From Armatimonadota bacterium (GTDB taxonomy: Bacteria; Sysuimicrobiota; Sysuimicrobiia; Sysuimicrobiales; Sysuimicrobiaceae): a stretch of DNA of 64,000 nucleotides. Positions 12,457 through 15,999 of the stretch are shown piece by piece. The position numbers and the translations under genes were made by a program. Each line of letters opens with the position of its first letter. The stretch's first letter is position 1. The DNA lies in NCBI GenBank assembly GCA_025060455.1, contig JANXBY010000008.1, positions 1 through 64,000 of the forward strand, given 5' to 3'. The notes under the pieces are model-generated. The model searched no databases, was not told the DNA's origin, and saw only the letters and a program-made list of their open reading frames with translations.

Positions 12457-12930
12457 CTAGTAGCCCAGGCCCGTGATCTGCAGCCGCAAGAACCCCGCAG
12501 GGACCTGCACCTCCACCACGTCTCCGGGACGCCGGCCCAGCAGGGCCCGCCCCACCGGCGACTCGTTGGAGATGCGGTCCCGGGACGGGTCCGCCTCCGC
12601 GGTGCCCACGATCCAGTACTCGTACTCCTCCCCGCTCGCCAGGTCCCGCACCCGCACCCGCGAGCCGATGGTCACTTCCCCGGACACGCCGTTGCCCTCG
12701 ATCACCTTCGCGGTTCGCAGAAGCTGCTCCAGGGCCAGGATGCGGCCCTCCACGAAGGCCTGCTCATTCTTGGCGTCCTCGTACTCCGAGTTCTCGCTGA
12801 GGTCGCCGAACGCCTTCGCCTGCTTGATCCGTTCGGCCACCTCCTTGCGCTTCACGGTCTTGAGGTACTCCAGCTCCTCCTCAAGCCGCCTGAGCCCTTC
12901 GGGGGTGAGGAACGTCTCCTTCTTCTCCAT
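12457..12930 (-). CDS. greA: Transcription elongation factor GreA
   Basis: 157 residues from ATG at 12930, with GGGAGT ahead. The N-terminal coiled coil carries the acidic tip ([17 protein letters not shown]) that enters the RNA polymerase secondary channel and stimulates cleavage of backtracked RNA. The C-terminal FKBP-like domain ends in [22 protein letters not shown] strong promoter (TTGAAG, 17 bases, TATAAT) lies upstream and a terminator downstream, so it is a single-gene unit. Confidence 0.97.
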
Positions 12931-13053
12931 ACCGACTCCCGGTCGCACCGGCCTGTGCCGGCAGACTCCGCAGGGCGCGTGGGCAAGAACCGTGCCGCGG
13001 GAAAAGAAAACACCGTGGGCCCGCGCCCACAGCGTCCCTGCGTCCTCGCCTGT

Positions 13054-13082
13054 ATTATACCGGGGCGTGCCCTTTGCTTCAA
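13054..13082 (-). promoter_or_regulatory. Sigma-70 promoter of greA
   Basis: On the minus strand TTGAAG (13082-13077), a 17-base spacer and a perfect TATAAT (13059-13054). The -35 overlaps the stop codon of the upstream gene. The predicted greA leader is about 115 bases. Confidence 0.8.
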
Positions 13083-14164
13083 ACCGGGGGAGGGACCGCA
13101 GCGTGCCGCCGCCTGCGGATGCGTTCTACCTCCTCCTCCCCGATGGCGCGTTCGAACCGCCGGAAGCCGGCCAGCCGGAACCCGTGCCGGTGGGCAATAC
13201 GGGCGATCTCCTCCACGCGCTCCAGGGACAGCTCGGGGCCCAGGGTGTACGACTCGTACCGGCCCTCCAGGGCGAGGGCGATGGTCTCCGCCATACAGGC
13301 CTCGCAGGTGCCGGGAGGGAATCCGAAGTCGAACCCGAAGTCCACCTCCCCCGGCACCTGGATGACGCCGCCGTCCAGGACCAGCACGTCGTCCCGCCGC
13401 GCGTACACCTCCCGCGACACGTTGCGGGGCCGGGCCACGTCGCACACCACCGCGCCCGGCTTCAGGTCCTCGGGCTCCACCAGCACCGTGGTGGCGCTGG
13501 TCACCGTAAGGACGATGTCCGCGTCCCGCACCGCCTCCCGGACCCGGTCGGTGGCCTCCACGGCGCACTTGGACTCCGCCCGGATCTGGTCCGCCAGGCG
13601 CTCCAGCCGCTCCCAGCCCCGGGCCACGAGGGCCAGGGAGCCCACCTGGCGGGCCAGCAGCCGGGCGCAGGCGGCCCCGATGGCACCCGTGGCGCCCACC
13701 ACCGCGGCACGGGCCCGTGCGGGTGCGATGTCCAGCCGGCGGGCCGCCGCCAGGGCGCCCTCCACCGCCGTGGCCGCGGTGTAGGAGTTGCCCGTGGTCA
13801 CCGGGATGGGGGAGCGGCGGGCTACGGTCACCCCCCGGTCGCCCACAATCTTGGTGAAAGCGCCCAACCCCAGAATCCGCGCCCCGAGCCGCTGGGCCAT
13901 CTCCGCACAACGCGCCAGGCGGCCGTACACGAACTCGGGGTCTGACTCCAGCATCACCCGGGGCGTCATGGGAAGGCCGATGAACCACCCCTCCGCCTCC
14001 GGCCCTGCCTCGGACCGGATGCCGGTGATGTGGGACACCAGCAGGGGCGGGACGTGGCGGAACGCCGCTTCCACCCACCGGGCAGGCAACCAACGTGTGA
14101 ACGGGAACTTGCGGGCGAAGTCCCCCACCTGCAGCGGGTGGATCACGAACGCGAACCGTTCCAC
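13079..14164 (-). CDS. Fatty acyl-ACP reductase-like / predicted amino-acid dehydrogenase (COG5322-type)
   Basis: 361 residues. A Rossmann domain in the middle ([19 protein letters not shown], near residue 170) follows the motif [11 protein letters not shown] and an earlier [12 protein letters not shown]. Further on is [19 protein letters not shown]. These three motifs and their spacing match cyanobacterial long-chain acyl-ACP reductase (AAR), including the Cys that forms the thioester. Homologues in non-photosynthetic bacteria are often called shikimate or amino-acid dehydrogenases without proof. No aldehyde-deformylating oxygenase is seen nearby. The preceding gene ends two bases away, so the two are co-translated. 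A reductase of acyl thioesters is the best guess; the substrate is unknown. Confidence 0.65.
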
Positions 14165-14165
14165 C

Positions 14166-15131
14166 CTAGGCGGTCCTCCCCTCTCGCCAGCGCTCGTAAA
14201 GCGCCCGCAGCCCCTCGGACCGCGGTGGGTTCACCCACTCCACCCGCGGCCGGAAGCCCAGGCGGCCCATCCACTCCACGTACTCCTCCGGCAGGATCTG
14301 GTCGGGAGGCTTGCCCGCGAAGGCCACCACCAGCGCCTGGAACACGTTCGTGCCGAGGGACCGGCCGGCCAGCTCCGGGGTCACCGTCACCAGCAGGGCC
14401 GCCCCGCGCCGCCGCAGCTCCTCCACGTCCTGCCGGGTGAGGGTTTGGCTCAGCACCACCTTGTCGGGGAGGTGGTCGGGCATGTACCGCCGGATGAAGT
14501 GGAAGTCCCCCGCCACCACCTCCGCCCAGTGGAAGAACCGGCCGTACCGGGGAGTGTTGTGCTCCTGGCGGCTGCCCGTGGGGTACAGCCACCCCAAGGG
14601 CAGCTGGGTGAGGAAAGGCAGCAACAGCGCCGCCAGCACCCTTACCGACCACAGGGACCGCAGGGGGAACGGCAGGCCCAGGGCAAACAGGAAGTCCCCG
14701 TACACCACCTGCGCGCCCGCGCGGGCGAACGCCTCCGCCATGCCGTAGCGGTCCACGGAGCTCACCTGCAGGACTCGGCGGCCTTCCAGCCGGTAGCCGA
14801 CCACCTCCGGCAGGTAGTGCAGCACCACGTACGGCTCCCACGCCTGCTTGAGCCCGCTCCCGTCCACCACCGGTGTACGCCGGACCCGCCGGGCCACGCG
14901 TACTGCGTCCCGGAGGTAGTAGCGGCGGCGGCCTGCCTGCAGGAACAGGTCCATGCCGCCGAGCCCGATGGCGTCCACCTGCCCGTCCAGGGACTCCAAC
15001 AGCTGCGCGCACCGGCGCAGGTCCCCATCCGTGCCCACCCGCTCCACCACGACCCGCTCGCCCAGCAGCTCCAGCTCCAGCCGGCTGTCCCGCCGGGAGG
15101 AGCCCAGGCTCACGCTCACCACGCGCTTCAC
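14166..15131 (-). CDS. Conserved protein of unknown function, partner of the acyl-reductase-like gene
   Basis: 321 residues, soluble, with a short hydrophobic stretch near the middle (SVRVLAALLLPFLTQLPLG). The N-terminus reads MKRVVSVSLGSSRRDS; conserved-looking blocks include DAIGLGGMDLF, TPVVDGSGLK and TNVFQALVVAFAGK. Proteins of this kind are sometimes labelled quinate 5-dehydrogenase in databases (from memory), but I see no glycine-rich nucleotide-binding motif. The C-terminal half, with VVLSQTLT and LLVTVTPEL, suggests an alpha/beta fold. It ends one base before the downstream gene starts, so the pair is probably functionally linked. Function not assigned. Confidence 0.6.
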   Translation of the reverse strand: MKRVVSVSLGSSRRDSRLELELLGERVVVERVGTDGDLRRCAQLLESLDGQVDAIGLGGMDLFLQAGRRRYYLRDAVRVARRVRRTPVVDGSGLKQAWEPYVVLHYLPEVVGYRLEGRRVLQVSSVDRYGMAEAFARAGAQVVYGDFLFALGLPFPLRSLWSVRVLAALLLPFLTQLPLGWLYPTGSRQEHNTPRYGRFFHWAEVVAGDFHFIRRYMPDHLPDKVVLSQTLTRQDVEELRRRGAALLVTVTPELAGRSLGTNVFQALVVAFAGKPPDQILPEEYVEWMGRLGFRPRVEWVNPPRSEGLRALYERWREGRTA

Positions 15132-15207: not shown

Positions 15208-15999
15208 TTAGCGGACCTCCGCGCGGCGGTTGCGCAGGAACAGGATCCGCAGCCCCTCCAGGGTCAGCAGGGGGTCGTGGTGGTGGATGCAGGTGAGCTC
15301 CTCCGCCAGCAGGCGGGCCCAGCCTCCCGTGGCGATCACCGTGGCAGGCTCGCCCAGCTCCCGATGGATGCGCCGCACGATCTCCTCCACCTGGCCCACG
15401 AAGCCGTAGTACACTCCGGCCTGCATGGCCGCCACCGTGGTGCGGCCGATGGCGCTGCGCGGCTTCTCCAGGTCGATCCTCGGGAGCTGTGCCGTGTGCT
15501 CCGCCAGGGCGTCCAGGGAGATGCCGATCCCGGGGGCGATGGCACCGCCGAGGAAGTCGCCGTCCCGGGACACGGCGGTGAAGGTGGTGGCCGTCCCGAA
15601 GTCGCACACCACGCTGGGGCCGCCGTACTTGGCGAAGGCCGCCACCGCATTGCAGATGCGGTCCGCCCCCACCTCCCGCGGGTTCTCGTACAGGATGCGC
15701 ATGCCCGTACGGATCCCCGGCCCCACCACCAGGGGCCGAGTGGCGAAGTAGCGCTCGCACAGCCGCTCCATGGTGTCCACCAGGGGAGGTACGACGCAGG
15801 ACAGCGCCACGTCGGTGACGTCCTGCAGGCGCAGACCTGCGTGCTGGAACAGGTGCGCGAACAGAATCCCGTACTCGTCCTCCGTTTTCTCCCAGTCGGT
15901 GGACACCCTCCAGTGGACCCGGGGCTGTGGGTCGCGCTCCGGGTCCGGGTAGACCGCCAGCTTGATCTGCGTGTTGTTCACGTTGACGGCCAGCAGCAC
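15208..15999 (-). CDS. coaX: Type III pantothenate kinase
   Basis: 263 residues of the ASKHA fold: phosphate-1 loop VNVNNTQIKLAVY at the N-terminus, PLVVGPGIRTGM, VCDFGTATTFTAV (phosphate-2) and GGAIAPGIGIS. CoaX phosphorylates pantothenate in the first step of coenzyme A synthesis and needs a monovalent cation. AGGAGA precedes the GTG start. An ECF S-component gene lies 12 bases upstream, consistent with paired vitamin uptake and phosphorylation. Confidence 0.95.
   Translation of the reverse strand: MLLAVNVNNTQIKLAVYPDPERDPQPRVHWRVSTDWEKTEDEYGILFAHLFQHAGLRLQDVTDVALSCVVPPLVDTMERLCERYFATRPLVVGPGIRTGMRILYENPREVGADRICNAVAAFAKYGGPSVVCDFGTATTFTAVSRDGDFLGGAIAPGIGISLDALAEHTAQLPRIDLEKPRSAIGRTTVAAMQAGVYYGFVGQVEEIVRRIHRELGEPATVIATGGWARLLAEELTCIHHHDPLLTLEGLRILFLRNRRAEVR

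Follow-up and report, generated by a model that had tools for sequence, protein, structure and literature searches.

PigE, a protein of prodigiosin biosynthesis, joins an N-terminal reductase domain to a PatA-like class III aminotransferase, and its authors present evidence for reduction of a thioester followed by transamination of the aldehyde (PMC8341465); it also has a Cys equivalent to C290 of the reductase described below. Cyanobacterial acyl-ACP reductase (AAR), for which the crystal structures 6jzq, 6jzu, 6jzy and 6jzz are available, is a further relative, as is PpKTFusion, a single chain combining a transaminase with a COG5322 reductase domain annotated as a predicted amino acid dehydrogenase (PMC10829540). 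Also related are PlsY-AAR fusions, found in Thermaceae and in some members of the window's order, in which an N-terminal PlsY-like acyltransferase domain precedes a reductase domain. The window, the whole 64,000-nucleotide stretch of DNA analysed here, encodes a reductase of this type, P1, directly preceded by a partner protein, P2:

13079..14164, minus strand: P1, AAR/PigE-type thioester reductase, 361 aa (NF053554, 228 bits; TIGR04058, 106 bits; PDB 4ppm and 6jzq; fold match to AAR)
13295..13297, minus strand: codon of Cys290, predicted thioester-forming nucleophile, equivalent to AAR Cys294 (from alignment; 100% conserved)
13673..13702, minus strand: Rossmann nucleotide-binding motif of P1, residues 155-164 (from sequence; G157 and G160 invariant)
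14166..15131, minus strand: P2, two-domain alpha/beta partner, 321 aa (no family match; AlphaFold pLDDT 92; conserved partner of P1)

Both genes begin with a GTG start codon. The order on the minus strand is P2 then P1, with the stop codon of P2 ending at 14166, P1 starting at 14164 and one base lying between them, as the preliminary description of a 361-residue protein and its partner had reported. P1 has its best family match in the reductase domain of PigE, with which it shares the same catalytic Cys, and the aminotransferase joined to that domain is of the type that recurs in P1/P2 operons and fusions; unlike PigE, P1 is a stand-alone protein paired with P2, reaches 228 bits against a cut-off of 850, and lies amid housekeeping genes rather than in a pigment cluster. 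From cyanobacterial AAR, whose fold, Cys (C290/C294) and Rossmann block it has in common, P1 differs by its identity of about 26%, its score of 106 against 449.7 bits, its separate branch and the lack of an aldehyde-deformylating oxygenase partner. The C-terminal P1-type domain of the PlsY-AAR fusions is 35-38% identical to P1, carries the invariant Cys and occurs in genomes that also carry P2, whereas the fusions are unlinked to P2 in the loci inspected. Finally, PpKTFusion shows the same pairing of domains as the P1 fusions described below, but as a single chain and with no P2. P1/P2 is a known reductase type with an unassigned partner family.

Family, fold and an invariant active-site Cys agree in identifying P1, by sequence and model, as an AAR/PigE-type thioester reductase with a presumed acyl substrate. 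The top curated model is PigE (NF053554; 228.5 bits over residues 44-354), an equivalog whose cut-off of 850 bits applies to the full reductase plus aminotransferase chain, so that P1, corresponding to the reductase part only, falls outside it. Similarity to PigE (1.7e-67) and AAR (1.7e-30) extends over alignments of about 300 residues, and the solved structures nearest by sequence are likewise those of PigE (4ppm) and AAR (6jzq, 6jzu, 6jzz). The AlphaFold model of P1 (pLDDT 90.6) has AAR crystals as its first fold matches, with TM scores of 0.79 (query) and 0.84 (target) to 6jzy, placing P1 in the superfamily by fold as well as by full-length similarity to the AAR/PigE reductase domains and by its Cys at the AAR Cys294 position. 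Beyond this, the only Pfam cut-offs passed were those of the general Rossmann domains PF01488 and PF02423. A shikimate or amino acid dehydrogenase affiliation was considered and rejected, given 25.8 bits for the shikimate dehydrogenase model (aroE; cut-off 200.2) and 44.6 bits for glutamyl-tRNA reductase (hemA), against 228 for PigE and 106 for AAR.

The AAR-type motifs that the preliminary description had read from P1 were all located: the Rossmann motif, a TTGNS block at residues 123-127, and a CEACMAET block whose second Cys is C290, the predicted catalytic residue, C287 not being conserved. Pairwise alignment places C290 opposite AAR residue 294, which is replaced in the entry described as AAR-C294S (6jzz), and C290 is invariant (100%) across 94 homologues, whether these stand alone or are fused to P2, PlsY or an aminotransferase. 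By homology, P1 probably converts an acyl thioester, by way of an acyl-Cys290 enzyme and with NAD(P)H, to an aldehyde.

The description of P1 as acyl-ACP reductase-like stands at the level of the AAR/PigE superfamily and fails at the level of the cyanobacterial equivalog, TIGR04058, on which P1 scores 106.5 bits (cut-off 449.7) and a true AAR (L162) scores 648.6; in the tree, P1 is placed apart from cyanobacterial AAR. This bears on a reading of the pair as a cyanobacterial-type alkane pathway, with AAR followed by aldehyde deformylation, which would be suggested by the homology of P1 to AAR and is opposed by its position far under the equivalog cut-off. As the preliminary description had anticipated from the window, aldehyde-deformylating oxygenase (PF11266) was detected in none of 61 genomes, comprising the window's and 60 others, and was recovered from the control Synechococcus elongatus; the alkane pathway was rejected on this basis and is extremely improbable.

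The partner was said to lack known motifs, and the same picture emerged from the databases, with no match for P2 in Pfam, one non-significant match in NCBIfam (E 0.19), and no meaningful match in PDB by sequence or profile. The AlphaFold model of P2 is confident (pLDDT 92), and its best matches among solved folds are Rossmann or periplasmic-binding-like proteins of two domains, none of the 50 matches listed exceeding a TM of 0.43; the fold class is recognisable in the model, and the fold search assigns no family. Among 109 stand-alone P2 sequences, R31, D90, K95, E99, D127, R128, D146, Y183, Q189, D209 and N262 are at least 99% conserved. Because these residues are polar and so strongly conserved, they look like an enzyme or ligand site, and no evident GxGxxG nucleotide motif was found in P2.

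A different account would make P2 a diverged, Cys-less relative of P1, serving as a non-catalytic subunit of a heteromeric reductase in acyl-carrier docking or aldehyde channelling. The predicted secondary-structure elements of the two proteins occur in similar order, both models match some of the same dehydrogenase folds, P2-P1 fusions occur, and profile alignment with hhalign is collinear over 222 columns, hinting at kinship. The alignment score of 19.0, however, falls inside the range of shuffled controls (mean 16.7, SD 3.1, maximum 28.4) and is not above shuffled or unrelated controls, so that homology is statistically unsupported. The many invariant polar residues also look more like an active site, and P2 is retained in genomes where the P1-type domain lies elsewhere, as part of a PlsY or aminotransferase fusion. 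We therefore regard the subunit account as improbable. In the reading that we prefer, P2 is a dedicated partner in the route and probably contacts P1 directly, its role being that of a second enzyme or of a subunit that handles substrate. Since P2 accompanies the reductase in every arrangement, fusions to an aminotransferase or PlsY among them, the step at which it works is probably one that they all share.

Survey of the pair across genomes revealed that P1 orthologues of 62-87% identity adjoin P2 across most of the window's order, and that pairs also occur in other phyla; from this distribution, the pairing is far beyond chance. Within the order, P2 was found in 42 of 43 genomes and a P1-type protein in 41 of 43, most with an adjacent pair, and in five genomes (G009, G011, G017, G020, G035) the only counterpart to P2 is a diverged PlsY-AAR protein encoded elsewhere. 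Of 343 genomes outside the order, 30 carry P2, all 30 of these have a P1 homologue, and a P1 homologue occurs without P2 in 10 (Fisher p 7e-35, uncorrected for relatedness; about 20 families). Among 80 P2 relatives in named records, P1 lies immediately downstream in 56, a proportion that leans to close kin because the query used to pick these top-scoring relatives was headed by the protein from the window. Furthermore, P2 and P1 form a single polypeptide in seven loci inspected in full (L033, L126-L131). All seven, together with one unfused protein, form one supported set in the tree, and the fusions may therefore have a single origin; two further sequences labelled PlsY in the conservation alignment and tree (L077, L052) are over-long ORF calls and not fusions.

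Variants of the arrangement were also observed. In G223 (L143:5033-7943), two tandem P2 genes directly precede P1. Desulfotomaculum-type loci (L093, L099, L100, L106, L108, L110, L111) have P2 without an adjoining P1, beside genes for YkuD and Germane-domain proteins. Three of the fusion genes (L033, L129, L130) have glmM-like and YbbR/CdaR-like genes in their vicinity, these being identified from sequence alone.

Additional partners were identified in other lineages. Genes for a class III aminotransferase and an SRPBCC protein directly precede P1 in 21 of 21 intact loci from the phylum to which G183 belongs, and where enough flank was available P2 comes first, giving the order P2 - aminotransferase - SRPBCC - P1. 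The aminotransferase/SRPBCC pair also lies near P1 in G168 and G304; the two genes adjoin each other in G058 and G344, both carriers of a P2-P1 fusion; and an aminotransferase of this kind comes after P2 on one contig from Bacillota (L082). The aminotransferase is itself fused to a P1-type domain in G088, G161 and G298, and by position also in G453 (L192). The aminotransferases of these operons are nearest to putrescine aminotransferase and PigE (PatA-like, class III). An aminotransferase beside P2 in G131 (L157) belongs to a more distant subfamily and was left out of the count.

The window's own operon, like most Clostridial pairs, has no aminotransferase nearby. An orthologue is encoded elsewhere in the window's genome (G000:C41:924-2159), unlinked to P1/P2, with 53% identity to the operon enzyme and a score of 500 bits, the next class III protein reaching 274. 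Aminotransferase matches above 340 bits were found in 42 of 54 genomes bearing P2 or P1, against 0 of 8 without P2, in a small set uncorrected for relatedness; co-occurrence of the aminotransferase alone is weak evidence because PatA-like enzymes are common. An orthologue in this range was absent from six of about 11 Deinococcota genomes examined.

A further group of P1-type domains follows a PlsY-like acyltransferase domain within one chain. Among these fusions (L036, L038, L039, L135, L137, L165), in the copies inspected, the position of GSGNxGATN, which we take to be the usual PlsY block, reads like SAYNLGLEN, and in four genomes (G011, G017, G020, G035) the fusion is the sole PlsY match found. 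A literature search on PlsY with acyl-ACP reductase returned general reviews only, and one on COG5322 and "quinate 5-dehydrogenase", presumably the annotation linked to the pair, gave no functional lead for it.

Alternatively, P1 and P2 might make fatty aldehydes for a fate other than an amine, for example conversion to fatty alcohols or incorporation into alkyl or vinyl ether lipids, and P2 would then be the enzyme that consumes the aldehyde. The reductase chemistry would be identical, PlsY-like fusions suit any glycerolipid use, the layout of P2 is two-domain and dehydrogenase-like, and the aminotransferase is missing from the vicinity of most pairs, including that of the window. Yet what recurs in the operons and fusions is an aminotransferase, where this account would call for an alcohol dehydrogenase or an enzyme that forms ethers, and P2 has no evident GxGxxG nucleotide motif. 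We consider a non-amine fate the less likely reading.

A candidate destination for an amine is provided by the phylum of G346, in which P2 and a P1-type protein occur together in 61 of 61 sampled genomes. In one member (G208) the superoxide dismutase is a near-identical match to PDB 1mng/3mds, which we take to be the Thermus enzyme, and TIGR04058 also finds matches in Thermus composti and Deinobacterium chartae, used as controls of known name; on these grounds the phylum is read as Deinococcota. An N-glyceroyl alkylamine lipid whose alkyl chain is iso-C17 occurs in Thermus thermophilus (PMC3398001) and is described as a marker of the lineage (PMC3035268), and the enzymes for the third hydrophobic chain, the alkylamine, of Thermus phosphoglycolipids have been stated to be unidentified (PMC9636437). 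Moorella thermoacetica is also listed with N-glyceroyl alkylamines (PMC13274423), and such lipids are dominant in several Bacillota according to the title of Bale et al. 2025 as cited there. In the literature searched here, we found no enzymes identified for a membrane-lipid route from thioester through aldehyde to long-chain amine. P1 and the aminotransferase fit these lipids because an alkylamine requires an aldehyde-forming reductase plus an aminotransferase; the lipid link for P1/P2 is correlative.

Taking together the family, fold and Cys of P1, its pairing with P2, the aminotransferase and PlsY partners and the lipids of Deinococcota, we tentatively propose, as a reading with somewhat less than an even chance of being correct, that the P1 reductase, a PatA-like aminotransferase and the partner P2 supply long-chain alkylamine for N-glyceroyl-alkylamine-type lipids, with substrate, product and lipid use all putative. 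Cys290 of P1 would be acylated by acyl-ACP (or acyl-CoA), and the NAD(P)H-dependent enzyme would then release a fatty aldehyde by hydride transfer. The PatA-like class III aminotransferase encoded at G000:C41:924-2159 would then turn the aldehyde into a long-chain alkylamine, a step that is plausible and about evenly poised, and the amine would go into N-glyceroyl-alkylamine-type membrane lipids, a use that is possible in the window's organism but on which we would place rather less weight. This modifies the earlier suggestion of a two-protein fatty aldehyde producer: joint working of P1 and P2 is supported by adjacency, co-occurrence and fusion, and the broader survey brings in a PatA-like aminotransferase and points to long-chain amines for membrane lipids, the aldehyde being an intermediate. 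A broader and more speculative extension, held with correspondingly greater reserve, is that P1, P2, the PatA-like aminotransferase and the SRPBCC protein constitute a widespread and previously unassigned route to alkylamine, perhaps also to the N-glyceroyl amide, with P2 as a new enzyme family and the reductase-fused PlsY-like domain of Deinococcota carrying out a related acyl-phosphate-dependent transfer. If the proposed route holds true, P1, P2 and the aminotransferase would be a set of genes through which the origin of a signature membrane lipid could be tested directly, as well as a genomic marker of organisms making alkylamine lipids, and a first function would be gained for the P2 family, for which Pfam has no model; the P1/P2 pair may open a long-standing question on alkylamine lipids.

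Flanking the pair in the window are two conserved genes that probably lie outside the pathway:

15208..15999, minus strand: upstream of P2, a gene resembling coaX (type III pantothenate kinase), identified from its sequence; member of cluster 6, present in 25 loci
12457..12948, minus strand: downstream of P1, a gene resembling greA, identified from its sequence; member of cluster 2, present in 42 loci

Besides the coaX-like gene, an S58 peptidase and an ECF transporter component, both checked against Pfam, are encoded upstream on the same strand. Among deposited genomes, the nearest relatives were assembled from metagenomes and carry the labels Armatimonadota and Terrabacteria group ANGP1. The order S58 peptidase - ECF transporter - coaX - P2 - (aminotransferase) - P1 (window:12457-18108; L144, L145) is partly common to the window's order and a different phylum. 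In many Clostridial loci (L066:5445-6017 and 31 further), the gene upstream of P2 encodes a short HTH protein that weakly resembles HTH_3 and RepB.
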